64,000 nucleotides of DNA from Cenococcum geophilum 1.58 (taxonomy: Eukaryota; Ascomycota; Dothideomycetes; Gloniales; Gloniaceae): the NCBI GenBank assembly GCA_001692895.1, contig KV748183.1, forward strand, positions 3,100,001 to 3,164,000, written 5' to 3'. The notes beneath the pieces are model-generated. The model was given only the letters and a program-made list of their open reading frames with translations. It did no database searches and was not told where the DNA came from. A program made the translations under genes and the position numbers. This document shows positions 1 to 51,520 of the stretch, piece after piece; position 1 is the first letter of the stretch; each line of letters opens with the position of its first letter.

Positions 1-234
1 ATACCATTTAGAAGCCCTAAGTCTTAAAAATAATATATAAACTTTTGGTAATAATAACGCGTTATATAAATAAATAAATTAGATATCCGCAATATCCGTT
101 TTGCGGATTTTGCTTACGTTTTTAACAAATCTCGCCAAAGGCTCTTAGACGTGATTTTGCACGAAGGAGACGGCGTAGCTGTTATTCCGACGCTAGCCAA
201 AAAAAATCACGTCTGAGCTCGCTAAGGTAACGTA
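1..234. other. Left-edge AT-rich sequence, unassigned
   Basis: AT-rich sequence with no readable gene. It lies to the left of the clear part of the L1 long terminal repeat. If L1 were simply inserted in Copia A, Copia coding sequence should appear here; I do not find it, so this edge is rearranged or the Copia was already truncated. A small hairpin (atccgc...gcggat) lies near 95-115. Confidence 0.4.
141..217. repeat. Short inverted repeat, MITE-like, 77 bp
   Basis: The left arm at 141-158 (gctcttagacgtgatttt) is the imperfect inverse of 200-217, with about 16 bases paired. The compact arm-loop-arm form resembles a miniature inverted-repeat element lodged in or beside the L1 LTR. No target duplication is convincing, so it may be only a hairpin. 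Confidence 0.3.
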
Positions 235-1595
235 GTGCTTAAGTAGGGGGCTGATGAGTTACTATAAGGGTGACTAATCAGATACACGCGACCGCGCAAT
301 ATACATTCCAACACTGGCAGTTCTTTCTTTATGCGTAGAACAGCCATCCTAAGATATACAACTACGTAACCCTTATACATACACTCTAATATAACCTCTG
401 TCTATACATTCCGACACTAGCAGTTCTTTCTTTATGCTTATGGCGCTATAGGAAGGCAGTAGAAGTCGATCAGCTATAGGTAGGGCAGCAAAGGTAGGTT
501 TGTTTACTGCGGGCAGAGCAGTAAGGTATTAGTATAGCTATAGGTAGAGCAGCAAGTTATTAGTTAGCTGCGGGTAAGGTAGTAAGGGTAGGTCTACTAT
601 AGGCGGAGCAGTAACGGTCGAATGGGGGTTAGCTGCAGGCGGAGCAGCTAGAGGTCTATTTAGGTGGTAGTACGGTACTAGCGGCGGTAGTAGTAGTAGT
701 TAAGCATAGAGCTTGTCTATCAGTCGGTCGGTTAATCGTAGGCGTACAGGCACGATTATTTGGTCGGTAGATCGCAGGCGTATCGGCGCGATTAGTATCG
801 TAATAGCAGGCATAGCGGCGCTATCAGTTTATTGATGGTATATAGCAGTACGGTGCTAGCGTTAGATAGATTGCAGGCGTAACGGCACAATCGTTTAGTC
901 AGTAGAGGATAGGGAGCGCGCTAGCGTTGTAGGCGCGCTATTAGACGTATATTCGACGTGGCAGATCTATAAGGGTCGTGGCAGAGTGTTGAGCTTATAT
1001 AGGGTAACTGTTTTGGCGCGTATAAGGTATTCTAGACGCGTTTACAGTCGTTTTTAACGTGGTTTCTTGATAGGTTTAGTAAAGAAGTCGAGTTTAACGT
1101 TGTGTAAGAGGTAAGGGGTAGTTACGCAAGAAGCTAAGGGGGAGTTAGGGAACGTGTGGTCTTCTTTATGTTTATATAAGGAAGTAAAGGTGGCGAGCTT
1201 ACGGTAAACGTGATGGACGTAGAATTAAGGGTGGGTAAGGCTGTTAATTCCTTAAATATCTTTTATATTCTTTGCTTGTATAAGGAGGAAAGAAAATATC
1301 TAATATTCCTTAGCATAAGGTAGTTCTATAAGTTCGTATAAGGAAGTTACAGAGGCCTTATCTCTTCTGAAAAGACCTTATTAATCTATGGTATAACCTA
1401 TAAGGTTAACCATTGATTAATGTCGGTTTTATAGGGGGGTGACCTATTAAGAGTATACTCTTGTTCTGATGGTGTTGCAAATAGGTTATCGAAAGCAGAG
1501 GATCGTAAGGATCGCAGTGCTTAAGTAGGGGGCTAATAAGTTACCATAAGGGTGACTAATCAGATACACGCGACCGTGTAATATACATTCCAACA
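235..1595. mobile_element. Non-autonomous LTR element L1 (hairpin-array family)
   Basis: Two direct repeats of 79 bp, at 235-313 and 1517-1595, both end in ccaaca and are the parts of the two LTRs that align clearly. The LTRs probably extend further left, and the 3' copy may start near 1440 just after a purine run (ataggggggt). The interior has no retroelement protein. Instead, 440-960 is packed with short hairpins of the same families as in L3 at 43.2-46.2 kb: for example stems AATCGT/ACGATT at 734-757 and ATAGC/GCTAT at 803-824. The leader after the LTR (cactggcagttctttcttta) recurs at 415-434. The element interrupts Copia A; the five bases after it (ataac) fit its target site (atgac in Copia B). 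It is moderately RIP-mutated. Confidence 0.7.
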
Positions 1596-4680: not shown

Positions 4681-7540
4681 TAATTACTACCACAGTTATA
4701 GTTTTAAGAAGTTAAATAATATACTACTAAAAGCAGCCACTATAATACTGTTAACGGCAGCAACTATATTAAGGTTAAGTGGAGATATAAGTATATAAGA
4801 TACTAACTTATAACTAGTTATAGTTGGGCAGCTATAGGAAATTATTAATAGGTTAAATAAGAATAACTAAATACTTAAAGAAAGACTTAATGGGATCGGA
4901 GTAGTAAAGGTTAATTTACCTTTAATTAAATAATTCTTAGGGGAGAGATTAAAGCTTAAAGGATTCCTAATGTAAATACATTTTAAAGTTATGTAAGAAG
5001 GGGCTAAGTTAGCTATAATAATGGATTAAATAGCCTATATAGGACTATTCTTATTAGGACGGGCACTTAAATGGTTTAAACCCTACTTAACGGAAATATA
5101 GACTAACGGAATAACTACTACTAATTAAGAGGTACGATTTATGTTTTTTTTAGCTAGGTAGGATTTATAGAACGATTAATATAGATATTTAGGGACCCGG
5201 AAGTAATAGTTATAGTAAAAAAAAAGCTTTAGGACCTAATGCAGCGAACTTTAGTAATTAAGTATATAATATAGTTTTAAATACTTACTATATAGGTTAA
5301 ATAGAATAATAAGGCACTTATGGTATAGTATAAATAGGGACTTAAGGCTAAAGTCTAGGATATAATTATTCTAATAGAAGATATGGACACCCTAAGGGAA
5401 TTAATAGATTAAGCGATTAAGATTAATAATAGGATCTTCTAAAGGGAATAGGCTAAAAGAGGCTAGAATAGAGTTCTATAGTTATATAAGACGTAAAGTA
5501 TATAATAACTAAAGCTAAGTTAAAAACTATAGTATAGCGTAGAGCTAATAAACCTAAGTAGTACTAAAGAAACCTATAAAAGATAGAGTAAGAAACTATA
5601 GAAACCTAGAGGTTAAGGATTAAGTAATTATAAAACTAAGGAGTATAGGCTAAACTAAGGATTTTAATAGTAGAAGATGTTTAAACGGACTCTATAATAA
5701 AAGTAATAGTTTAAAAATAGAGCTTATATAAATTGCGGAAAATAGGGTTATTTTGCTAAAGACTATAAAAGTGGTTAGAGTTATTATATAGTAAAGGGAA
5801 CTAGACTAGTAGTATATAACACATATATATAAAGGGATAATAGTATACTATAAGGAATAAAAGAATATTTAATTAGAAGTTTTGCGTTTTATTATAATAA
5901 CGTATACTAAATTTATAAAGACGCTAAGTATAGTACAAGCTATTAGCTATAAAAGCTAGAGTTAAGAGAACTTAAAGGAACTAAAGAGTTAAATAAAGAA
6001 TAGGATCGACTCTATAAGCTAGATTAAGATATTACAGCAATATATAGATAATAATTAGCAACAATAATAATAGAGTTAAAGTACTTATTAATTAATAGCG
6101 ATAAGGATAATAAAGAAACTAACTAGGGGTATCTAAACCTTAATAACGTAATAAAAGTAAAGACTAAGACCGCTATAGAGCAAGGATTAGTAATAGGTAT
6201 TATAATACCGTTAAATACAGTATCTATTACTTTATAAGATAGAAGGAGTAATATCTAGAGATAATTAAGCAAGCAGATAACTGCTAGTGCTAGCTTACTA
6301 CTTAATAAAGGTAAAAGGCTAAAGGCTTAAGATTCTTAAGACGAGATAAGAGATAACTAAGATTCTTAAGATAAGATAAGGTATACTTAAGGACCTATAA
6401 TAGACGCAAACCGATGGAGTAGGGTAGTAGCTTAGTTTAAAAATATATAAATAAGCTTGGGATAAGTGTTCCTAACAGTATAAGATTCTTAAGATAAGAT
6501 AAGTAAGATTTAAGACTCTTAAGACGAGATAAGAACACTAGTAAAGCCTAGTTAGACTAAGGCTAGAGCTAAGCTTAAGTTAAAAGTAAGCTTAGGATTA
6601 AAGAATCTAAGGGATTAAGAATTTGGAGTGTAAATTAGGACACCTATAAGTAAGAAGTAAGGAGCTTCTTTATAGATTAGAGAATCTATAATATAAATAG
6701 CAGTTAGATTAGAAGACAAATATATAAACTTAAAAGACTTACTAGTAGAATAAGATGTTTAGACTAAAGATCGAAAAGTTAATACAGTAATTAAGAAGTA
6801 AGAGAACTTTAAGGATTTAGTTACAAGACGCAAACTATAGGAAACTATAAAAGAATTTAGAGCAAGAATTATCGCATAGTAAGAAAAGAAACTAGATATA
6901 AGATTTAGTATATTAGGACATATAAAGGATAGAGTACTAGTATAAAGAATTACTAATAGGCTAAGAATAGGTATATTAAGAGCTAAGTAGCTTACTAAAC
7001 TAGAAAACAAAGAGGATTTAGGGATTCTTATTAGGTTCGAAGAATAATATATAAAAGGCTATTATAATATAGTAATAAGAAGATACTTCCTTATAGATAG
7101 ACCGTATATACTCTAACAGCTATACTAAAAGTGGTATAGGCAACGACACAATAATAAGTAGGAAGATTTCTATATATAGTTAGACGAAAAAGTTATCTAA
7201 AACCACCTAATTATGGAAAAAGTAATAAATTATATTAAGGGAGCCTTAATTATAATATTAAAGGATCTAAAGGAATAATTAGAGGACTAGAGAAGTAAGA
7301 AACGCGTCTTAGTACCTGTAAATAAAGTTATAATATTTAGATTAGTATAATAGAGGTCTAAACCTAAAGATAAAGATAAGCTAAGAGTTAACCTAAAGCA
7401 CCTAGTATATTATATACTATTATAGATTACATATATAGATAATATGTGCGAGATATATAAGAATCTAAAGGAAAAGAATTGAAAATACCCTATAAGGATA
7501 TACTGGATAATAGATAAATAATAGTATAGGAATGCTAAGT
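4681..7540 (+). pseudogene. Gypsy I gag region, RIP-degenerate
   Basis: Read in frame through the stops, 4840-5460 resembles a Retrotrans_gag capsid domain (for example the block ending LGRALKWFKPYLTEI). A nucleocapsid knuckle of the CCHC type follows at 5722-5766, its first cysteine codon changed to TAT. The distal part (5880-7540) holds repeated short motifs such as gattcttaagacgagataag and no domain I can name. Homologous sequence lies in reverse at 22697-24549 and 3628-4260 (Gypsy II) and at about 29590-32468 (Gypsy III). It cannot make protein. Confidence 0.8.
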
Positions 7541-12810: not shown

Positions 12811-13390
12811 CTGGCGACATTTACAAAAAGGAAAGAAGGTAAGAAAGTATAAAGGAGAAGTATATAGCAGTATAGTGCCAGCTTAGACGGACTATAGGCG
12901 TAATAGTATAATCGTTTAGTTAGTAGACTCTATCTATATATTTTAATACTAATAGTTCTTTCTTTATATATAAAACCACTAATATATAGACTTTATTAAT
13001 ATAGTATTCGTAGCTTATAAAGGCCGTAGGGGGGGGAGGAGCACGCTGGCGTTTAGGGCGCGCTATTAACGTAATTTTTAACGTAGCAGATCTGTAGGGG
13101 AGGCAGTAGATAGTATTAGGATTATAGGTAGGGGGAGCCGTAACGTTTATAGAAGTAGCTATAATATTTATAGGTAAAGGGAGCTTAGCTATAGAAGGGT
13201 TATTTAAAATAGCTGTAACGTTTATAGGGGGAGCCGTAGCGTTTATAGATAAGGGGGGCTTAGTTATAAGAGGAAGGTTATTTAAAACAACTGGAGCTAA
13301 GTTATACTATTGCTAGGCTTACGGAGGTTTATATAGGCTTAGCTGCTATAGGTCCTTAGCTTTAGTTAAGGGGGAGGGTAAAGCTAGTAG

Positions 13391-34355: not shown

Positions 34356-35004
34356 ACGTACCAACGGTCCATCGAGGGTCTCATTTAACATGCGGATCGT
34401 TGGTACCCCCCAACGAAAATTTTGACCCGAGTTTATGATTAATAAGCCGATTAATTAACCTAAAGCTTTAATTTAGAGCCGTATTGTATAGAGCTTAATT
34501 AACATATACTGGTAGGTATGGATTTGCTTTATAAATCCTATACCTCCGTTGTGCTTCGCAGTAGGGGGTAAGCTTTGGGCAGACCTATGTGCAGAGCTTT
34601 AATAGAGCCTTATATAGAGCTTTGGTAGAGCCCCACGCGGAGCTTTATATAAAGCCTTGCGCAGAGCCACGTGCAGACGTGCAGATGTGCAGCTATTTGT
34701 TCCGGCGATTAATTGCAGAGACATTTGTAGAGACGGCTGTATAGGCAATTATATAGGCGTTTAATTAATTGTTCGTACGGGCGTTCGTATAGGCAATTAA
34801 TTGATTAATTAATTAATTATATAGACGTTTATAGAGCCGTTTATAGAGACGTTCGTATAGGCGTTTAGTTAATTAATTGATTAATTGTATAGGCGTTTAT
34901 ATAGGCAATTGATCGATTAATCAACTAATTATATAGGCGTTCGTACGGGCGATCGTATAGACGTTTGTAGAGCCGTTTATAGAGCCGTTTGTGTAGACGA
35001 TTAT

Positions 35005-37020
35005 AGAGCCTTCCTAGTATCAGTGCTGCATATTAGTAGAGCTTTAGAGCTCCGTATTAAGCTTTAAGTAGAGCTTTAAGTAGAGCTTTAAGTAGAGCTT
35101 TAAGATTAAGGGGGAGACCCCCTTGGACCCCCCTACGCACTACGTGCTCCATTTGCTGCGTGGGCAGAGCTCTTACAGAGGCTTTAGTAGAGCGCTTAGT
35201 AGAGCTTTTATAGAGCTTTATATAGAGGTTCGTGTAGAGCTTTTGTAGAGCTTTTGCAGAGCTCTATATAGAGCTTCGGTAGAGCTTCGTGCAGAGCTTC
35301 GGTAGAGCTTCGTATAGAGCTTTGGTAGAGCTTCGTGTAGAGCTTCGTGTAGAGCTTCGGTAGAGCTTCGTGTAGAGCTTCGGTAGAGCTTCGTGTAGAG
35401 CTTCGGTAGAGCTTCGTGTAAAGCTTCGGTAGAGCTTCGTGCAGAGTCTTGTGCAGAACCGCATGCAGGCGTTCGCATAGGCGATTAACTGCAGAGACGT
35501 TTGTAGAGACGATTGTATAGGCAATTGCATGGACGTTTGATTGATCGTTTGTATGGGCGTTTGATTGATCGATTGTATAGGCGTTCGTACGGGCGATTAT
35601 GCAGACGTTCGCAGAGCCGTTTGTAGAGCCGTTCGTGTAGACGATTATAGAGCCTTCCTAGCATATCAGTGCTGCGTGTTAGTAGAGCTTCGAGTAGAGT
35701 TTTAAGCTCAAGGGGGAGACCCCCTTGGACCCCCCCTGCGCACTGCGTACTCCATTTACTGCGTGGGCAGAGCTCTTGCAGAGGCTTTAGTAGAGCGTTT
35801 GGTAGATCTTTTGCAGAGCCTCGTATAGAGCTTCGTGTAGAGCTTTGTGTAAAGCTTCGTATAGAGCTTCTATAGAGCTACAGGTAGGCGTGCAGACGTT
35901 CGTACGGGCGATTAATCGTAGAGACGTTTATAGAGACGATTGTATAGGCAATTGTATAGACGTTTGATTGATTAATCATATGGACGTTTAATTGATCGTT
36001 CGTATGGGCGTTCGTACGGGTGTTCGTACGGGCGATTGTGTAGACGTTTATAGAGCCGTTCGTAGAGCCGTTCGTAGAGCCGTTCGTAGAGACGATCGTA
36101 CGGCGATTAATCGTATGGACGTTCGTACGGCCAATTATAGAACCTTCCTAGTATATTAGTACTGCGTGTTAGCAGAGCTTTAGAGCTCCGTATTAAGCTT
36201 TAAGTAGAGCTCCGAGTAGAACTTTAAGCTTAAGGGGGAGACCCCCTTGGACCCCCCTGCGCACTGCGTGCTCCATTTACTGCGTGGGCAGAGCTCTTGC
36301 AGAGGCTTTGGTAGAGGCTTTGGTAGAGCTTTTAGTAGAGCTTTTGCAGAGCTTCGTACGGAGGTTTGTGCAGAGCTTTTATAGAGCTTCGTACGGAGGT
36401 TCGTGCAGAGCCTTTGTAGAGCTTTAGTAGAGCTCCATGCAGAGCTTTGATAGAGCCTTATGTAGAGCTTTGATAGAGCCTTATGTAGAGCTTTGATAGA
36501 GCTTGTATTTAGGCTTGTTTTTAAAGGCCTTATAAACGACTTCGTATAGAGCTTTGAGCAGAGCTTTGTATAGGCGTTCGTGCAGGCGTTCGTGCAGGCG
36601 TTCGTGTAGACGTTCGTGCAGGCGTTCGTACAGACGTTCGTAGAGACGTTTATAGACACTCGTAGAGATGTTTATACGGGCGTCTGATTAATTGTATAGG
36701 CGTCTAATCGATTAATCGTATGGACGTTTGATTGATCGATCGTATGGGTGTTCGTACGGGTGATCGTGTAGACGTTTGTAGAGCCGTTTGTAGAGCCGTT
36801 TGTACGGACGATTGTACAGGCAATTGTAGAGCCGTCGTAGAGGTGTTTGTAGAGACGTTCGTCGAGACGATTGTGAGACTTCCTAGTATATTAGTGCTGC
36901 GTGTTAGTAGAGCTTTGGAGCTCCGTATAGGGCTTCGAGTAAAGCTTCGAGCAGAGCTTCGAGCAGAGCTTCAAGGGGGAGACCCCTTAGACCCCCCTGC
37001 GCACTGCGTGCTCCATTCAC
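35005..37020. repeat. Higher-order repeats of about 490-740 bp (four units)
   Basis: A block that starts ccttcctagtat-agtgctgc and continues through a ggggg-aga-ccccc palindrome, ccttggaccccc and gtgctccattt recurs at about 35012, 35650, 36145 and 36885. Between these landmarks are arrays of tagagctt-type units and of cgttcgtacgggcga-type units. The overall pattern is a tandem array whose units differ in the number of short repeats they hold. Confidence 0.8.
35225..35450. repeat. 11-12 bp minisatellite (gagcttcgtgta type)
   Basis: Tandem units alternating between gagcttcgtgta and gagcttcggta, about 18 copies. The same 12 bp unit forms the long array at 51220-51500 inside H-A. Open frames reading through it are repeat artefacts. 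Confidence 0.85.
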
Positions 37021-37191
37021 TACTTGGCTAGCACACTGAGTGGGCAGAGGTGCTGCAAAGCCTTTGGTAGAGCTTTTGGTAGAGCTTTTGCAGAGCTTCG
37101 TACGGAGCTTCGTGCAGAACTTTTGCAGGGCTTTGGTAGAGTTCGGTGCAGAGCTTTTGCAGAGCTTTAGTTAAACCCAATGTTTTGAAGT

Positions 37192-38835: not shown

Positions 38836-39421
38836 CATTTTTATCTAACTACCTTCCCACCCCCTAAACGGTTATAACTCTCGACGCCCTGTGCCCTGCG
38901 GTCTTAGCTCAGCCTCCCGAGGCCTTTAGCAACCTTGTCTCCTTCTTAAGAACGGTATGCAAATTGCGACTCTAGTGTTTATCTTAACTTATGAGCTATA
39001 TCCTAAATTCAATTAATAAAATGTCGATTAATATTTTCATTATACTAATGCTCTTTAATATCTATATCTTACGACTAACATGCTAATAAGAACGACTACC
39101 TTTATAAGTATATCAAATTTTTCAAAGGTCCTTAAAATAAACCTTCTTCACCTTTTTCGCTTAGGTATCGAAATGCGACAATTCGAAGTAGTCTGGGAGC
39201 TTGCATGTCAGCTAACGATATACCACAGATCGCAGAAACCTAGCTCCATCCGCTGCTGGCAGGGCGGCCTGTGATTCCCGACCTCTCTCACCTTCGATCG
39301 AGACATCAAAACTACAAAACTACCTTCTAGTTGGACCGTTGCTAGCTCTTCTTCATGTTGTTGTTGCATTCGTCCGCTTCCTTGAGTTGTTCTACGCCAA
39401 AATTGAACAGCGAGTGCTTCC
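38836..39421. other. Upstream region of the kinase gene
   Basis: Mixed composition, AT-rich at 38940-39140. No gene or repeat recognised. The last 300 bases have normal GC and pyrimidine-rich stretches and are the likely promoter and 5' leader of the kinase. I see no defined TATA box that I would place. Confidence 0.4.
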
Positions 39422-41284
39422 ATGGATCTTCAAACTGGCCGAACTTCTCTGCGAGTGGAGGAGCTTCTCTCAGATTACTTCCCTCCTAGCAAGAACGTCC
39501 ATACACCAGAAAATGGACGAACTTATACTGATTCAGACATTCAAGAGATTGCGTCATTACTTCGTTACCTGAACCGTTCGTGGAGCCGCGTCCCAAGAGC
39601 CTACATCGTCCTACGTGTTATCGGTCGGCTCAGCCTTCTCGACGACTTCATTAAAAGCCGCTTCACAGACCACTGGTTTCCAGTCACTGCGAGAAGCCTT
39701 CCACCTCATATCGATACAAGGATATGCAGAGATTTTGTAAGAGCACAGTCTCTGGTTCTTACGAAATCAGTGGATTTAGAGAAAGGCGAGAATGGAAGAC
39801 ACAGGCACTTTGGGCGTGGCGAACCGCTTCCTCTTGAGAGCAAGGAGATTCTTGGCGCAGGCTCTTATGGGCAAGTCGATCGTGTGGTTAGCCTGATTAG
39901 CTACAAGGAATACGCGAGGAAGCAAATACATCGCCAGACAATATTTAAGGATAAGAGCAAGGAAGCTATGGAACGCTTTGCAGAAGAATTGCACGTCCTC
40001 AAGAAATTACAACACAGACACACTGTGCAACTCATTGGAAGTTATACGGACCCGTCATTCTTGGGTCTTCTTCTTTCGCCAATTGCTGATATGGATCTGT
40101 CGATTTATCTGGCCGATAACCTCGTACCGCCCTCTCTCAGTAAAAATGCAACAATACGAACCTGGTTTGGTTGCCTTGTAACCGGCCTTCAGTATCTTCA
40201 TGAGAAATCTATTCGCCATAAGGACATCAAACCTCAAAATATTCTTGTCAAAGGTGAAAGGGTGTTGTTTACAGACTTCGGCTTGTCTCGTGATTCAACA
40301 GACTGTACGGGGAGTACAACATCAGGACCGGCGATGATGACACCACGATATTGTGCCCCAGAAGTAGCAGCACAATCTCCCCGCAATTCCTCTTCCGATA
40401 TCTGGTCTCTCGGCTGTGTCTTTCTGGAGATGACATCTATTCTCAAGGGCTGGAATATCGATCAATATAAGGCGTACTTTAAATCCCACGGGACAGAAGA
40501 ACCGTACATCTATAATAACTTACCTGCTGCAGAAGCTCTGCTGTCTGAGCTCCGGAAAATTGGTTCTTCTCGCGATAATAAGCCGTTAGATTGGTCCCTG
40601 GCAATGCTTCAGATCGACCGTAGCGCACGTCCAACCGCAGCAACACTCGCTACATCTATCATATGTAACGATGAGGATGTCTTTGGCTTTTGCGGTGTAT
40701 GCTGCCGAGGCGACCCCGAGCCCGATGGTCCTGATGAGCTCGCAGAAATTTTCGAGAATATGGGTATTGGAGAGATTCGGAATGACATAACGGAAACTGC
40801 TGTTGAACGAGCGCCTAACCTTTTAAGTTGTGAGAAGCGCCCATACCGTCCTACCGGCGAACGCTTGGCACTTCCCCTGGTACCTGAAAGAAACCCAGCA
40901 CGCAATCCTCCTGAATCACAGAGGATTTTAGACCTTCCTCCAGTGGGCTTCTTCTGGCCTTCGGAACCCCCTCTGGTTCATAGTCCTATCACGTCTCATC
41001 GTGAAATGGACTCACAGCTGATTACAGTACTTGAATCTATCCCGAAGCCGCAGGAGGCTCGCCATAAGAATATCGAACAATCTGATTTCGCAAACAACCG
41101 CCGGCTTGTCATTAGAAAACCTCGCGAGGAATCATTATCCCCTGCCAGTCACAAAATAACGCAAAGCCGGCCTAATGGGAACAAAAATGAGCGTGTTAAG
41201 ACTTCTAAAACTCCCGCCCGCAAAACCCAGGAACTCAAGCTTCCCCCTACTACAAAGAGTATACTATCGCGGGTTTTCTTCTGA
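39422..41284 (+). CDS. Serine/threonine protein kinase, intact
   Basis: A 620-residue single-exon frame starting at ATG 39422 (context cttccATGG). Residues 1-140 form an N-terminal region without a domain I know. A eukaryotic protein kinase domain covers about residues 141-415: glycine loop GAGSYGQV at 145-152, ATP lysine probably K167 (EYARKQI), a C-helix glutamate near 188-189, catalytic loop HKDIKPQN at 266-273 with D268, DFG at 285-287, APE at 312-314, the DIW of subdomain IX at 326-328 and SARPTA near 401. All catalytic residues are present; the usual HRD arginine is lysine. The C-terminal 200 residues are polar, proline-rich and probably disordered. Codon use and GC content are normal, with no RIP damage, although transposons lie on both sides. 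Substrate and pathway cannot be read from the sequence. The gene stands alone, in the gap between H-B and H-A. Confidence 0.93.
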   Translation: MDLQTGRTSLRVEELLSDYFPPSKNVHTPENGRTYTDSDIQEIASLLRYLNRSWSRVPRAYIVLRVIGRLSLLDDFIKSRFTDHWFPVTARSLPPHIDTRICRDFVRAQSLVLTKSVDLEKGENGRHRHFGRGEPLPLESKEILGAGSYGQVDRVVSLISYKEYARKQIHRQTIFKDKSKEAMERFAEELHVLKKLQHRHTVQLIGSYTDPSFLGLLLSPIADMDLSIYLADNLVPPSLSKNATIRTWFGCLVTGLQYLHEKSIRHKDIKPQNILVKGERVLFTDFGLSRDSTDCTGSTTSGPAMMTPRYCAPEVAAQSPRNSSSDIWSLGCVFLEMTSILKGWNIDQYKAYFKSHGTEEPYIYNNLPAAEALLSELRKIGSSRDNKPLDWSLAMLQIDRSARPTAATLATSIICNDEDVFGFCGVCCRGDPEPDGPDELAEIFENMGIGEIRNDITETAVERAPNLLSCEKRPYRPTGERLALPLVPERNPARNPPESQRILDLPPVGFFWPSEPPLVHSPITSHREMDSQLITVLESIPKPQEARHKNIEQSDFANNRRLVIRKPREESLSPASHKITQSRPNGNKNERVKTSKTPARKTQELKLPPTTKSILSRVFF

Positions 41285-41764: not shown

Positions 41765-42656
41765 TTTATAAGTAATAAGCCAATTAATTTTAGAGCTTTA
41801 TTATATAGACTTTAATTAATATATATAGAGATAAGGTTTTCTAGGGGAAGACCCCCTGGGACCCCCCTATATAGAGCTTTTGCTTAATTTAGAAGTGGTA
41901 GTAAGAGTAAGGCGCCTTAGTTACTGCTAGGTAAGAATCTACTATAGTGACCGAGGCGCCCTACTTAAGCTAGGCTTAAGGATTATATTGGTTACGAATC
42001 TAGTATATATTTAGACTATAGAGCTTTAATACAGAGCCCTCTACGTAGGATCTGATATAGTAGATTATAATTCTAATTTAAAGCTTTATATACTAAATAT
42101 TTTTAATACCTAATAACTAAATCGCCGCATAGCTAAAATTAAAGTAAGTCTACTACCCCAACTTAATTAAATACGCGTATAAAAAGAGACATAACTATAT
42201 ACAGAAACGTCTAACATAATTAAGTAACTATGTCATTACCTACCCAGTTCGGACGTATAATAACGCGATAGCTCGGCGATAACGTAATAGCTCGGCGCCA
42301 AGTAATAGGAGGGGGAAGAAGGGGGAGGAGATTAGGGGTAGCTCGGCCACTGCAAGAAGGTCATAATATTAGTGTAGTATTAAACTTTAAAAATTGTGTC
42401 CCGGGAGCTTAATTAACGACCCCTATATAAAATGTTAATAACGTTTAATTATAGAGCTTTAAACTAGCAGATCTTCTAGGAATGCCTATTATAAGTAGCT
42501 CCAAGTGCAAAATCTAAAATATTTAGTAGTGGTGTGAGTATAGGACGGGGGTATATATTTGCGTTCCCAAATATCGTTATATAACGTAATTTTTAGGTAA
42601 CGAAAACTGCCGTTAATGTTACTTAACTAATACCTACCAGAGGTTCCTTTATCCTT
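41765..42656. other. H-A 3' subterminal region, gene-free
   Basis: AT-rich with tagagcttta units, one ggggaagaccccc hairpin near 41841 (same motif as the H-B higher-order repeat) and, from 42385, a block shared with 48545-48750. The last 55 bases belong to the 258 bp tandem repeat that continues at 47052. No coding potential. Confidence 0.5.
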
Positions 42657-42661
42657 CCTAT

Positions 42662-42848
42662 TGTTACGGCTCGTACAAATGCCTCTGAACCAAAGCTTGT
42701 AAAATGCTGTATTACGAAGATACTAAGCTAAGGAGCAGAAGAAGGTCGAGGAAAGGATACGTCTATATACACGAGCCAAGTCTCCAAGCGAGCCCCTAAC
42801 TAGGCTGCATGTAGACGTCGCATAGGGCGGTGCCCCAGCGCCGTTACA
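42662..42848. repeat. LTR of L3, left copy (187 bp)
   Basis: Starts tgttacggctcg and ends gcgccgttaca, with an 8 bp terminal inverted repeat tgt-acgg-type at its edges. It differs from the right copy at about four sites. Confidence 0.93.
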
Positions 42849-43239
42849 TCACCCCCCTCTTCCAAAAAAGCCTGCCCTCAGGCTTTAGCCCCTCGTAGAG
42901 AAGAAAGAGAAAAGAAAAAAAATCTTACATCTAGCGCTCGATCGCGATGCTAGTTAACATAGGACTTACAGCAGTCCTGCAGCTCCTGCTGCTGCGAGGT
43001 ATATTACTATACCTAGTTAACATAGGGCAGGCAGCCGTCCTGCAGCTCCTGCTGCAGCAAGGGGTCTATTGCTAGGAGCCCTCCGTTGGTCGTCGTTCCT
43101 CCTCCCTCCTCCTAGAACTCCGGTACCTCCTAGCTATACTCTCCCCCCTTTTGTTATAGCGCGCCCCGAGCCATAAAAAAAGCCCCCCTAGTCCCCCTCT
43201 TAGAAAAGTAGGCGTAAAGGTTTAATAAGGGTGGGAGGG

Positions 43240-46220
43240 TTAGGGAGTTACTCGCATGCATATCGGCACGAGTTCTTGTCCGTTCGGTAGCAGTACGGTG
43301 CCAGCAACGGGTCGTTCGGGTGGCAGTATAATGCTAGCAACAGGGTCGTATTCTAGGGAGCAAAGCTCTACCTAGTTATGCAGGTGTTACCGCAGGCGGA
43401 GCAGCAAAAGTCGGTCGGCTGTAGGCAGAGCAGCAAGGGTCGGCTAGCTGCTAATAAAGCAGCGAGGGTTAGTCGGCTACAGGTAGAGCAGCAAGGGTCT
43501 ATTATAATAGCAGGCATATCAGCGCTATTATTCGGTCGGGTTTGCATTCGAATTACGTTCGGGTAGCATTCGAATCGCATTCGGGTCGCAGGCGGATCGC
43601 AGGCGTAACGGCACGATCGGTCTGTCGGTTAGACTATAGGCGTAGCAGCACAGTCGTTATCAGGTTATAATAGCAGGCGTATCGGCGCTATTGTTGTCTA
43701 GTCGGTTAGCTGCAGGTAGAGCAGCAAGGTATCGTCTAGTTGGGTAATAGTACGGTACCAGCGTCAGGTAGTAATAGTAGGTCGAACATTCGGAGCTCGA
43801 TCTATCAGTTGGCCAGTAGATCGCAGGCATATCGGCACGATTAGTCGGTCGGGTATACATTCAAATCACGTTCGGGTCGCATTCAAATCGCATTCGGATC
43901 GCAGGCGTATCGGCGCAATCATTTAATCAGTTAGCTGCAGGCAGAGCAGCAAGGTATCGGTTCTTATAGCAGTACGGTGCCAGCGTTAGGTGGTAATAGT
44001 AGGTCGAACATAGAGCTCATCTATCAATAGGTCATAGTTCCACAGGCATATCGGCGCGAAGCTTATCAATTCGGGTAGCAGTACGGTGCTAGCAGCGGGG
44101 TCGTATTCCAAGGGGCAAAGCTCTCCCTTGTATACAGTTATTACTACAGGCAGGGCAGTAGAAGTCGGTTGTAGACTACAGGCAGAGCAGCAATGGTCTA
44201 TCGTAGTGCTGCAAGCGAGGCAGCAGAAGATGGTTCGCCGCAGGCGGAGCAGCGGAGGTCGAATTAGTATTAGCTGCAGGCAGAGCAGCTAGAGTCGATC
44301 GTGGTGCTGCGAGCAAGGCAGCAAGGTGTTAGTTAGCTGCAGGCGGAGCAGCAGGTGTCAATAGTAATACTACGGGCAGAGCAGCAGAAGGTCGATTAGG
44401 TTACTGCAGGTAGAGCAGTAGGTGGTCTATCGTAATAGCAGTACGGTGCAAGCGTCAAGTGGTGATAGTCAGTCGAACATTCAGAGCTCGGTCTATCAGC
44501 TGGTTAATAGATCATAGGCGTAGTAGCACAATCGTTGGTCAATGGATCACAGGCGTAACGGCGCGATCGTTGTCGTAGTAGTACGCAATAGCAGTCATAT
44601 CGGCACGATTATCTCATTCGTAGATCACGGGCGTATCAGCGCGATCGTTCGGTCGTCAGACTGTAGGCATAGCGGCACAGTCGTTGTCAGGTTAGCGTAG
44701 GGCATGCAGCCGTCCTGCTGCTGCAAGGGGTGTATCCTAGCTCTCTACCCCCTCCTTTAATATGGCGCGCCCCAAGCCATAGAAAAAAGAAATATAGCTC
44801 GCATACGTATCGGCACGAGCTCTTGTCCAAATCAACTTCATTGTTAAAGCTTACACAGCTCAGTACTAACCTCGTTGTCGAAGTGTACAAATACCTAAGG
44901 TAAAGCTTGTATAACTCAGTATCAACCATAGTCGTTCCTCAGTATACGTAGCTTAGTGTCAGTCAAAAAGGATCACCGTAGGTAAAGAAGAAGACAATCA
45001 AATTAGTAAGGGAGGCAGTTGATCGTCAACGAACTCATACGGTCGTTATCAAAGTCGTAGTTCGTGTCGCAGGCATATCGGCACAACGGTCGGTCGGGTT
45101 CGCTTTCAAATCGCGTTTAGGTCGCGTTCAAATCGCATTCAGATCGCAGGCGTAACGGCACAATCCATCTATCGGTTTCTCAAGGTCTACCGTCAATCGG
45201 TAGGTAGTTTAAGATATTAACTTATTAGTTAAAGGTATGCTGTCAATCGTAGCACATTCAACCAGTTATTATACAAGTATGGTATCAAGAGAGATGCGCC
45301 GATAGGTTAATTCTCGTTAAGGTATTTAATTAAGGTATCGGTGTATAGTCTATCAATATTCTCATAATTCTTAGAACAGGTCGTCGTTAAATGGTAGACG
45401 TGTTCAAGTGCTGTTAGGATATTTAAAGGTACGCTATAGGGTCAACAGGCGTATTTAAATACTTATATTCAATCAAGGATATCGCTTTAGGTAATAGATA
45501 TCTAGAGTCGATCAAGGACTTATAGGAATGCCGTTATAACTTAGCATATCAAATCGTTGTCAGAGAGGTATCAAAAGAGGTATCAAGAAGGTACGTATCA
45601 ATATTTCGATTCTTGTCAACAACTAGCAAGACATACTTTCGTAACGGTAGGCCGTCTCGTTCGTAGAAGGTCGTACAAATAGCTATTGAGAGAAACGCGT
45701 CAATAGTTCGTAAGAGGTCGTAGAAATAGGCTCATCTATAGGGCTATTAGAGAGTGCCATGAATCGGAATAATTCTCCTGATCTATTCTCCTAATCAAGA
45801 GTGCCATAAATCGCTCAAATTCTCCCCTAGGTTCCTAGTACCCTATACATAGGACTGTAATGCTTGTAGATGTATTCGGCCGTAAGATCGAGAAACTATC
45901 TAGGTCAATAGTAAGGTTCAGGTCGATCAGGTACGGTGGTTATTAATAAGAACTCAACGGGTGTCTATAAGGGCGTTTATAGACAGGTCAGAAAGTCGTC
46001 GTATCGCAGGCATATCAGCGCGACAGGTTATCGGGTTTGCTTTCAAATCACGTTCGGGCCGCATTCAAATCGCATTTGGATCGCAGGCGTATCGGCGCGA
46101 TCGTTCGGTCAGTAGGACTATAGGCGTATCGGCACAGTCGGTAATCGAGTTTGGGGGTTTGGGGTAGCAGTACGGTGCCAGCGTCAGGTCCTTCCCAATC
46201 AATTTCGTCTCTCCTCATAC
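43240..46220. repeat. Array of short hairpins with constant loops and covarying stems
   Basis: More than twenty copies of an about 24-base unit with loop consensus AGGC(G/A)TA(T/A)CGGC are spread through this interval, each closed by 5-6 bp stems that differ between copies but stay complementary: AATAGC/GCTATT at 43669-43692, GACTGT/ACAGTC at 44659-44682, GATCGC/GCGATC at 46079-46102. With a related loop: ACTCG/CGAGT at 43250-43273 and AGCTCG/CGAGCT at 44796-44821. A second class has a 7-base loop such as AGGTAGA with stems GCTGC/GCAGC (43709-43725) or TACTGC/GCAGTA (44402-44420). A third has loop GTACGG. L1 carries the same classes. Confidence 0.85.
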
Positions 46221-46864
46221 AGCTCAGTATCAATCGGGGTAGTTATCGCAGCGTAGTAGCCAGAGGACAACGGGTAGGATTCGTTCCAGAGGACTCCGCA
46301 AACAATATGCACCTACCGCCCAATGGCACGGCACGGGTCATAAGTCAGCTCGTCTTGGCTATCGGCCCAAACCTAATACATACCAGAGGACTTCGCGGAC
46401 AATATGCACCTACCGCCCAATAGCACAGCGCGGGTCACAAGTCAGCTCGTCTTAGCCGTCACTGCGGGATCAGTGCTAGGCTTAGTGACAGGATCACTAT
46501 ATCATTCTCCGCAGTACTAGGCTGAGTCTCAACCAGGGTCGTCTCTGCAGCTCGTACAACTCCGTATCAGTCGAAAAGGTCAGAGGGGTGAGATATTCTA
46601 AGCCTTCCCAGGCACGTGTCCTTGGCCATCAAAGTCGGCATTCGATCGCAACCACAGGAGACCTTCTAGCTGCTTAAGTACCGGCTCCCAGTAACTCAAT
46701 AGTAGCGACTCAACGCGTCGACGACGCGCAGCTAGGGGTGTTCGACGCGAGTCCTCGAGGACCTACGGAACGGGGGTGGGAGATTATCCAGGCCTTCCCA
46801 GGCGAGGTAAAGAGGGAGCTTCAAAACGAATGAAGTCCCCCCCGGGTGGGTAAGCTTAGTATAA

Positions 46865-47051
46865 TGTTACGGCTCGTACAAATGCCTCTGAACCGAAGCT
46901 TGTAGAATGCTGTATTACGAAGATACTAAGCTAAGGAGCAGAAGAAGGTCGAGGAAAGGATACGTCTATATACACAAGCCAAGTCTCCAAGCGAGCCCCT
47001 AACTAGGCTGCATGTAGACGTCGCATGGGGCGGTGCCCCAGCGCCGTTACA
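46865..47051. repeat. LTR of L3, right copy (187 bp)
   Basis: Full-length match to 42662-42848, followed by the target duplication cctat. Confidence 0.93.
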
Positions 47052-47745
47052 CCTATCTCCTCTCTTACCCGTCTCCTTGTTAGATGCTATTTATATTACT
47101 ACGTTAACCAATAGATCCCTTAGTGGAGACTAGGGAGGGGTATTAGAGCGCCCCTAGCTTTTATAAGGAAGAAGAAAGAAGAAAAGAGGAAGGTATAGAG
47201 GAGGGAGTATTTATAGATAGGAGGAGGCCTACGAACGGGAGATTAGGCAGCTATAATATAGACATTAACGTTACTTAACTAACACCTATTAGACGCCCCT
47301 CCGTCCTTCCTATCTCCTCTCTTACCCGTCTCCTTATTAGATGCTATCTATATCGCCACGTCGACTAATAGATCCCTTAGTAGGGACTAGGGAGGAGTAT
47401 TAGAGCACCTCTAGCTCTTATAAGGAAGAAGAAAGAAGAAAAGAGAAAGGTGTAGAGGAGAGAGTATTTATAGACGGGAGGAGGCCTACGAGTACAGGAG
47501 ATTAGGCAGCCATAATATAGCTAGTGACGTTACTTAACTAATATATACCAGAGGCTCCTCCGTCCTTCCTATCCTCTCTCGCCCGTCTTATTATCCAATG
47601 CTATTTATATTGCCATATTAACTAATAGATCCCTTAGTGGGGACTAGGGAGGGGTATTAAAGCACCTCTAGCTCTTATAAGGAAGAAGAAAGGAAAAAAG
47701 AGGAAGGTATAGAGAAGGGAGTATTTATAAATAGGAGGAGGCCCT
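47052..47745. repeat. 258 bp tandem repeat, about 2.7 units
   Basis: Units begin at 47052, 47309 and 47568 with cctatc-ctctc and contain an agaagaaagaagaaaagagg purine run and a gggag-atttatagat segment. The end of a preceding unit (acttaactaatacctaccag and on) lies at 42630-42661, left of L3, so L3 interrupted the array at a unit boundary. Confidence 0.85.
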
Positions 47746-50195: not shown

Positions 50196-50690
50196 GTCGT
50201 CTGGCTCTGGCGACAGTCGTCTGGTTCTGGCGACGGTCGTCTGGTTCTGGCGACGGTCCGTCTGGTTCTAGCGATGGTCGTCTGGTTCTGGCGACGGTCG
50301 TCTGGTTCTAGTAACGGTCGTCTGGCTCTGGTAACGGTCGTCTGGTTCTGGCGACGGTCGTCTGGTTCTAGCGACGGTCGTCTGGTTCTGGCGACGGTCG
50401 TCTGGTTCTGGCGACGGTCGTCTGGCTCTAGCGACGGTCGTCTGGCTCTGGCGACGGGTCGTCTGGTTCTGGTAACGGTCGTCTGGTTCCGGCGACGGTC
50501 GTCTAGTTCTAGCGACAGTTGTCTGGCTCTGGCGATAGTCGTCTGGCTCTGACGACGGTCGTCTGGTTCTGGCGACGGTCGTTTGGCTCTGGCGACGGTC
50601 GTCTGGTTTTGGTAACGGTCGTCTGGTTCTGGCGACGGTCGTCTGGTTTTAGCGATAGTCATCTAGTTCTAGCAACGGTCCTCTGCTGGC
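50196..50690. repeat. 20 bp minisatellite (ggtcgtctggttctggcgac)
   Basis: About 25 tandem units, most identical or with one or two transitions, and two units one base longer. Open frames on both strands (up to 158 codons) are repeat artefacts. Confidence 0.9.
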
Positions 50691-50812: not shown

Positions 50813-51520
50813 CAGAGCTTCGTGTAGAGCCTCCGTACGCAGAGCTTCGCGCAGAGCCTCGTGCAGAGCTTCGTGCAGAGCTTCGTGCAGAGCCTCCGTA
50901 CGCAGAGCCTCGCGCAGAGCCTCGTGCAGAGCCTCTGTACGTAGAGCTTCGTGGCAGAGCTTCGTGCAGAGCTTCGTGCAGAGCCTCCGTACACGCAGAG
51001 CCTCGCGCAGAGCCTCGTGCAGAGCCTCTACGTAGAGCTTCGTGCAGAGCCTCTCCGTACGCAGAGGCTTCGCGCAGAGCCTCGTGCAGAGCCCTCCGTA
51101 GGCAGAGCTTCGCGCAGAGCCTCGTGCAGAGCCTCTGTACGTAGAGCTTCGTGTAGAGCTTCGTGCAGAGCTTCGTGCAGAGCCTCTGTACGTAGAGCCT
51201 TCGTGTAGAGCTTCGTGTAGAGCTTCGTGTAGAGGCTTCGTGTGTAGAGCTTCGTGTAGAGCTTCGTGTAGAGCTTCGTGTAGAGCTTCGTGTAGGAGCT
51301 TCTGTGTAGAGCTTCGTGTAGAGCTTCGGTAGTAGAGCTTCGTGTAGAGCTTCGTGTAGAGCTTCGTGTAGAGCTTCGTGTAGAGCTTCGTGTAGAGCTT
51401 CGTGTAGAGCTTCGTGTAGAGCTTCGTGTAGAGCTTCGTGTAGAGCTTCGTGTAGAGCTTCGTGTAGAGCTTCGTGTAGAGCTTCGTGTAGAGCCTTATG
51501 TAGAGCCTTATGCAGAGTCT
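50813..51520. repeat. 12-15 bp minisatellite (gagcttcgtgta / gagcctc-type)
   Basis: The first half mixes units such as gagcttcgtgca and gagcctccgtacgca. The second half (about 51220-51493) is a nearly perfect array of gagcttcgtgta, with about 13 identical units in a row at 51338-51493. The same unit occurs in H-B at 35225-35450. Confidence 0.92.

Follow-up and report, generated by a model that had tools for sequence, protein, structure and literature searches.

Stem-loops with a constant loop and covarying stems within a non-autonomous LTR element of Cenococcum geophilum

The stretch of DNA analysed here, referred to as the window, is 64,000 nucleotides long (C8:3100001-3164000) and belongs to a genome of 177 Mb in 162 contigs. 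A non-autonomous LTR element of 4.39 kb occupies positions 42662-47051; it is bounded by two 187-bp LTRs, 97% identical to each other, and carries a dense array of short hairpins. Its parts are listed below. Minus is taken as the sense strand, because the pol pieces of a 6-kb relative sharing its LTR ends lie on minus.

42657..42661, no strand: left target-site duplication CCTAT, equal to 47052-47056
42662..42848, minus: LTR of 187 bp, TGTTACGG...CCGTTACA on the plus strand; the 3' LTR if minus is the sense strand
42849..42869, minus: polypurine tract adjoining the left LTR, TTTTTTGGAAGAGGGGGGTGA on the minus strand, as read from the sequence
43240..44828, minus (sense taken as minus): dense hairpin array with units of classes A, B and C and further hairpins; most of its length matches other copies at 79-92%
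46853..46864, minus: stretch adjoining the second LTR, common to a 6-kb Ty3-type element (46853-46948 against positions 6079-6174 of that element, L042, 89%)
46865..47051, minus: LTR of 187 bp, 97% identical to the left LTR; the 5' LTR if minus is the sense strand
47052..47056, no strand: right target-site duplication CCTAT, equal to the left copy

Stop-to-stop frames reaching 120 aa are absent from 42662-47051, and no primer-binding site of tRNA type was recognised by eye at 46853..46864, beside the 46865-47051 LTR. The LTRs, the CCTAT duplication and the lack of such frames bear out the preliminary description, which had placed the hairpins inside a non-autonomous LTR element. Rfam returned no match for the whole window at the gathering score and none up to E 1 for 42600-47100; a search for tRNA genes by ARAGORN, run with the bacterial code, returned 0.

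A 257-bp tandem repeat directly follows the element (47052-47743), and 42613-42661, on the opposite flank, matches the same repeat; judging from these matches, the element seems to sit inside a 257-bp tandem array. Elsewhere in the window, long arrays repeating about every 12 bp, around AGAGCTTCGTGT, are located at 34817-37168 and 50814-51506, a 20-bp repeat in 24 copies, open in several frames, at 50196-50685, and a 625-aa protein kinase-like ORF at 39407-41284. The best named relatives of this ORF are from Coniosporium apollinis (57-59% over 66-70% of the query), while two further, unnamed matches reach 94 and 82%.

When the array was used as a query against the genome, at least 305 matches were obtained (40 of 389 candidates scored); those listed, other than the window itself, are 69-94% identical. 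The pattern of the LTR start of the element occurs 273 times genome-wide, and the exact 14-mer GCAGGCRTAWCGGC is found at 430 places, its reversed control at 1. From the first 100 listed of the 430 places, 40 loop sites were picked, 39 of which resemble other arrays; the remaining one (L069), considered as an isolated unit, was rejected as a 15-nt chance match in unrelated sequence. Loci were sorted by eye into five groups, G1 to G5, from BLAST sums; the G1 alignment contains 26 sequences and the further sets 13 (G2), 10 (G3), 5 (G4) and 6 (G5).

Among the first 100 listed occurrences of the LTR-start pattern, seven neighbouring pairs are 5974-5989 bp apart, and one of these, L042, is the 6-kb relative mentioned above. 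It has 84 bp of LTR start in common with the window element (93%), and its positions 312-361 are 90% identical to 42837-42885, the LTR end with the purine tract. Two of nine minus-strand ORF pieces gave matches, to RVT_1 (1.3e-9) and to RT_RNaseH_2 (3.1e-8), in broken reading frames. Judged by sequence, L042 represents a pol-bearing element that shares the ends of the window element. Searching both strands of this one copy with the patterns of classes A, B and C gave 0 matches, which weakens the simplest form of a packaging or dimerisation reading of the hairpins.

Hairpin units were distinguished by their loops: class A, AGGCRTANCRGC, with the 12-nt pattern AGGC(G/A)TANC(G/A)GC; class B, AGGCAGA; class C, GTACGG. 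A 28-nt covariance model of class A (R1; 42 sequences, 3 of them from this window) matches the window 24 times at E<0.05, always on the plus strand, with 19 matches in 43248-46141, 4 at 732-894 and 1 at 12888; three extra matches, with E 0.16-0.46, are class B-like. The "more than twenty" units reported earlier are therefore present in the window, but not in the element alone. All units cited there are in place: AATAGC/GCTATT at 43669, GACTGT/ACAGTC at 44659, GATCGC/GCGATC at 46079, ACTCG/CGAGT at 43250 and AGCTCG/CGAGCT at 44796. The class A units, and a second element containing some of them, are the following.

223..1595, minus (sense likely minus): second, shorter element, of group G3, with 91-bp direct repeats at 223-313 and 1506-1595 (91%)
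12888..12915, plus: decayed class A unit, found by the covariance model
43248..43275, plus: class A unit, stem ACTCG/CGAGT; pair 6 is A-T or G-C depending on the subfamily
43504..43531, plus: class A unit, stem AATAGC/GCTATT, found by the covariance model
43593..43620, plus: class A unit, stem GATCGC/ACGATC, found by the covariance model
43630..43657, plus: class A unit, stem GACTAT/ACAGTC, with an A.C on plus that is G.U on minus
43667..43694, plus: class A unit, stem AATAGC/GCTATT; at pair 5, group G2 has G-C where this unit has A-T
43817..43844, plus: class A unit, found by the covariance model
43895..43922, plus: class A unit, found by the covariance model
44036..44063, plus: class A unit with the poorly paired stem TTCCAC/GCGAAG, found by the covariance model
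44508..44684, plus: five consecutive class A units (44508, 44543, 44585, 44621, 44657), the last with stem GACTGT/ACAGTC
44795..44822, plus: class A unit, stem AGCTCG/CGAGCT, found by the covariance model
45063..45167, plus: two class A units (45063, 45140), found by the covariance model
46000..46141, plus: three class A units (46000, 46077, 46114); that at 46077 holds GATCGC/GCGATC

The units of the 223..1595 element start at 732, 768, 800 and 867, and its terminal repeats are unlike those of the 42662-47051 element. The unit at 12888 is probably what is left of a G3-like array. Another hairpin, GGGAGC AAA GCTC, recurs in the arrays (43352-43375, near 44110 and in locus L065), with an outer stem that is variable by eye (CTAGG/CCTAG, CAAGG/CCTTG).

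The pairing of class A arms was evaluated on unit positions, defined as alignment columns with a loop-like match in at least 4 sequences (G1) or at least 3 (other groups). Out of 44 positions found, G1 columns 1428 and 2196, class B units picked up by the class A pattern, were removed before counting, leaving 42 (29 in G1, 4 in G2, 3 in G3, 2 in G4 and 4 in G5). Alignment A1 contains one real copy per position, chosen by CpG count outside the arms. Its six-pair stem score is 0.632, against 0.261±0.027 in 500 shuffles and 0.210 in the best slid control; the shuffle model lacks the kinship of units related by duplication, among which perhaps ten changes are independent by eye. Paired cells amount to 85.3% of 252 (66.6±1.7 when shuffled), and cells changed on both sides to 57 (18.5±3.3). 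All 6 pairs show at least one change on both sides, which is not unusual, as it is reached by 196 of the 500 shuffles. Since the unit finder itself requires a loop-like pattern, and is thus partly circular, conservation of the class A loop carries no weight here.

The signal survives the collapsing of related copies. With majority letters, 28 distinct inner arm pairs contain 112 Watson-Crick cells out of 140, whereas 5000 shuffles of the collapsed pairs gave a mean of 78.7 and a highest value of 95. The tally of distinct arm pairs, from which nine loci lying inside other loci or duplicating them were left out, comes to 208; at least five Watson-Crick pairs together with an intact loop were found in 31 of them, and many of the remaining ones are decayed or belong to class B. 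The well-paired arms include AATAGC/GCTATT, AGTAGC/GCTACT, GATCGC/GCGATC and GACTGT/ACAGTC, as well as CTCGT/ACGAG, GTCGT/ACGAC, TCCGT/ACGGA and TGTCGC/GCGACA. Single-linkage clustering of units in a purine/pyrimidine code merged 652 of 740 units, and its statistics were discarded.

Perfect 6-bp arms were also counted without reference to the loop, at spacings 3 to 30, in eight array stretches (10,021 bases; two of the stretches are copies of one family). Spacing 12 yielded 25 arm pairs (2.49/kb), 17 of which enclose a class A-type loop, against an average of 0.31/kb for the other 27 spacings (15 pairs at 14, 12 at 7 and 0 to 7 elsewhere); the two G5 stretches have 0 at spacing 12. An AT-rich control sequence of 42,601 bases shows no peak, with 10 to 36 arm pairs per spacing and 29 at 12. 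The proposed behaviour is confirmed for class A: covariation of the arms exceeds that of the shuffled and the slid controls, the two arms changing in matched pairs around a constant 12-nt loop.

The same behaviour had been claimed for the two other loop classes, which do not exceed their shuffles. For AGGCAGA (19 positions), 51 of the 70 cells of the inner five pairs are complementary, where shuffles average 48.0 and reach 57 at most; for GTACGG, 53 of 70 are (mean 50.4, highest 59), at 24 positions that take in one stray LTR match. AGGCAGA has three complementary arm types, TGCTGC, AGCTGC and TACTGC, and may show a weak version of stem covariation.

Copies occupying one position tell a different story from that told by different positions. 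In the G1 copies (L015 left out), 3696 of 3870 minor-allele counts in columns 43240-44830 are C/T or A/G; these changes fall mostly at CpG, by eye, and break pairs on either side, so that the decay of copies is RIP-like. As copies at one position differ nearly only in this way, pairing is not maintained after insertion. Compensatory change, absent among recent copies, is found between unit positions and between subfamilies, and it predates the insertions. Two cases at matched positions are clean. Pair 5 is A-T in 25 of 25 sequences at G1 column 1389 and G-C in 12 of 13 at G2 column 1784 (one A.C), within similar linkers. Pair 6 at G1 column 792 (25 copies) is A-T in 20, G-C in 4 and A.C in 1, its left side being altered via a 3-nt indel.

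The choice of strand was examined through the pairs that are not Watson-Crick. In the inner five pairs of A1, 29 such cells are of C.A type (G.U on minus) and 10 of G.T type, decay included. Majority letters lean towards G.U on minus by 15:3 at threshold 0.6, 6:3 at 0.75 and 5:2 at 0.9, whereas G5 alone leans the opposite way (0:2 at threshold 0.6), as does decay within copies (97 against 133). Model hairpins fold in both senses, slightly better in plus; in minus sense, two extra pairs and a CU bulge leave the hexaloop CGAUAC. Given the pol pieces of L042, minus is likely the sense strand. G5 was considered as plus-sense for a TATA-like stretch, but its purine tract on minus rules against this.

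Folding energy was expressed as mean z, from 60 shuffles per 160-nt window, for plus/minus. Arrays are only mildly better than their shuffles (window element -0.62/-0.92; L040 -0.49/-0.67; L066 -0.69/-1.18; L073 -0.53/-0.43), and the G5 array L076 is no better (+0.08/+0.88); L042 gave -0.07/-0.01.

The module is common to several LTR lineages. Short LTR elements, 1.7-2.1 kb long, are represented by a G2 copy (L086) and two G5 copies (L083 and L084), all with a purine tract on minus; G3 elements have different LTRs. With one representative each of G1, G2, G3 and G5, the arrays are related in 6 of 6 pairs, but among their LTRs only G1 and G2 match (plus strand, E 0.01), those of G3 and G5 having no match to any other tested LTR at E 0.01. 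This suggests that the module either moved between LTR lineages or outlived the resemblance of their LTRs. L087 and L088 were considered as full-length Copia elements carrying an array, and rejected: inside the outer LTR pair of each lies another LTR-like pair, that of an element nested in a G3 hairpin element (1808-1924/6671-6787 in L087, 938-1149/3746-3956 in L088), and the RVT_2 match at C1:2502887-2503603 belongs to the element nested within L087.

From the stem covariation, the LTR anatomy and the presence of the module in several LTR lineages, we favour, with moderate confidence, the following reading: the interior of this non-autonomous LTR element would be a noncoding RNA domain, the transcript having been selected, while the family was active, for many copies of one stem-loop with a variable 5-6 bp stem around a fixed 12-nt apical segment, the loops being bound by protein. 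Selection would have acted at the RNA level, probably on the minus strand, which is the pol strand of the 6-kb relative. While the elements were moving, the folded shape would have been important at many places in each molecule, and a putative loop-binding protein, likeliest one that helper elements use for their capsid or for reverse transcription, is the simplest cause. We propose that, with its loops bound many times over, the array made a better template, a packaging-like multivalent role. Arrays would grow and shrink by duplication or deletion, as indels suggest, and after insertion the copies would merely decay.

RNA structure could instead have been selected for stability, export, 3'-end formation or escape from silencing. 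Two observations would suit such roles: in those G2 and G3 copies that were read, the array starts within about 100 nt of the minus-sense 3' LTR, and hairpins are missing from the one 6-kb copy examined. We know of none among them, however, for which a fixed loop would have to occur twenty times, and we consider them a rather unlikely basis for the array.

A purely mutational origin of the matched arms, by template switching between the arms of imperfect palindromes, is unlikely in our estimate. Perfect arms do recur next to mismatched ones in a repeat-rich array, and the folding energy of G5 is unremarkable, both of which would fit this origin. Yet matching is limited to about six pairs, beyond which linkers diverge, and transversion-type deviation is 0.10 in the arms against 0.34 and 0.32 in the linkers. 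Moreover, at certain positions the majority of copies holds a wobble-type state (pair 2 of G1 column 1352 is A.C in 15 of 24, pair 1 of column 792 is C.A in 19 of 25), and recent copies bear no sign of correction.

An extension of the packaging idea, which we hold to be quite unlikely, would make the array a transferable multi-hairpin assembly tag. Its loop would be recognised by the capsids of several unrelated LTR lineages, and the tag would have spread between non-autonomous elements by template switching, expanding since more hairpins package better, in the manner of the dispersed packaging signals of small RNA viruses.

That the hairpins act as DNA, by serving as binding sites or by extruding as palindromes, appears improbable. 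Both strands fold, and the evidence on strand is weak, as this action would allow; but a double-stranded binding site does not require arms that are free to vary as long as they pair, and a 5-6 bp stem with a 12-nt loop would make a weak cruciform.

A tiny mobile palindrome inserting unit by unit, comparable to mitochondrial GC clusters, had also been suggested. The indels bear on this: seven passed the filter; four contain hairpin units, two have no hairpin, and in one, different hairpins had been misaligned with each other. Of 13 G2 sequences, 10 contain and 3 lack a 34-nt stretch holding one class A unit; the stretch has 3-nt edge repeats and could be seen as such an insertion. A class B unit is present in 5 and absent in 20 G1 copies, and a class C unit present in 2 and absent in 8 in G3, both with direct repeats of about 10 nt at their ends, by eye, longer than those of the class A stretch, as in tandem duplications; a two-unit block in G1, which takes in the units at 46077 and 46114, is carried by 7 copies and lacking from 15, with repeats of about four nt, by eye. 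Gain and loss of units looks more like tandem duplication or deletion than like a mobile unit inserting itself, though this is least clear in class A, whose single indel has only 3-nt edge repeats. As no isolated unit was met among the 40 picked sites, 39 being within related arrays and the 40th a chance match, the mobile palindrome is very improbable. Least probable of all is that one ancestral repeat supplied the stems as its fixed flanks, with their matching inherited: classes B and C behave nearly so, but the excess of class A cells changed on both sides speaks against it.

To our knowledge, the way in which protein-less LTR elements bring their RNA into foreign particles is largely open. 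The hairpin is a short, countable and structurally constrained unit, present in many copies and common to LTR lineages without detectable LTR similarity; it represents a concrete candidate cis signal, which can be deleted, counted and swapped. Covariation, in addition, is visible between repeat units within one genome despite decay after insertion.

In the literature searched, largely outside subscription journals, no description of such a hairpin array was found. The hallmark of retrozymes is a hammerhead ribozyme, and Rfam reported none in the window or in 42600-47100. In small RNA viruses, packaging signals are distributed as several stem-loops per RNA, each a possible contact for one protein. 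Multiple packaging signals are described, for example, in satellite tobacco necrosis virus (PMC3662417, PMC3593212), whose coat protein is known, whereas the present array is known from sequence alone. Helenus, Ajax and Cassandra elements carry tRNA- or 5S-derived sequence in the LTR (PMC10886601), which is absent here (0 by ARAGORN with the bacterial code, 0 by Rfam). LARD and TRIM elements, including Cassandra, have LTRs and target-site duplications, code for no proteins and are presumably mobilised in trans, features that the window element shares; Cassandra, however, forms a super-hairpin of its LTRs and 5S parts, whereas the window element has separate hairpins with one loop and varying stems (PMC7215508). 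Tandem repeats between pol and the 3' LTR are found in plant Retand elements, and resemble the present arrays in lying ahead of the 3' LTR, but they are family-specific, and the main text describing these plant elements does not use the terms hairpin, stem-loop or secondary structure (PMC11963269). Ty1, like the present family, has hairpins in the RNA of a fungal LTR element; those of Ty1 serve packaging and dimerisation and are required in cis, and a mini-element is moved by a helper, but they are few, 5' and part of a pseudoknot in which loops pair mutually, whereas the loops described here are not mutually complementary by eye (PMC5454406).

Fungal GalEa Copia elements of Pezizomycotina contain a Conserved Hairpin Site directly after the 5' LTR (PMC5445492). 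The sequence following the 5' LTR of G1 (minus) is, by eye, non-palindromic, as compared with the 9-bp palindromic CHSeq1 of GalEa; a possible decayed form of CHSeq1 is seen at a G3 LTR. The likeness lies in a conserved hairpin within LTR elements of Pezizomycotina, but GalEa has one hairpin, with a conserved stem and the loop as its least conserved part, whereas the arrays described here have many, in which the loop is conserved and the stem is variable (PMC5445492).
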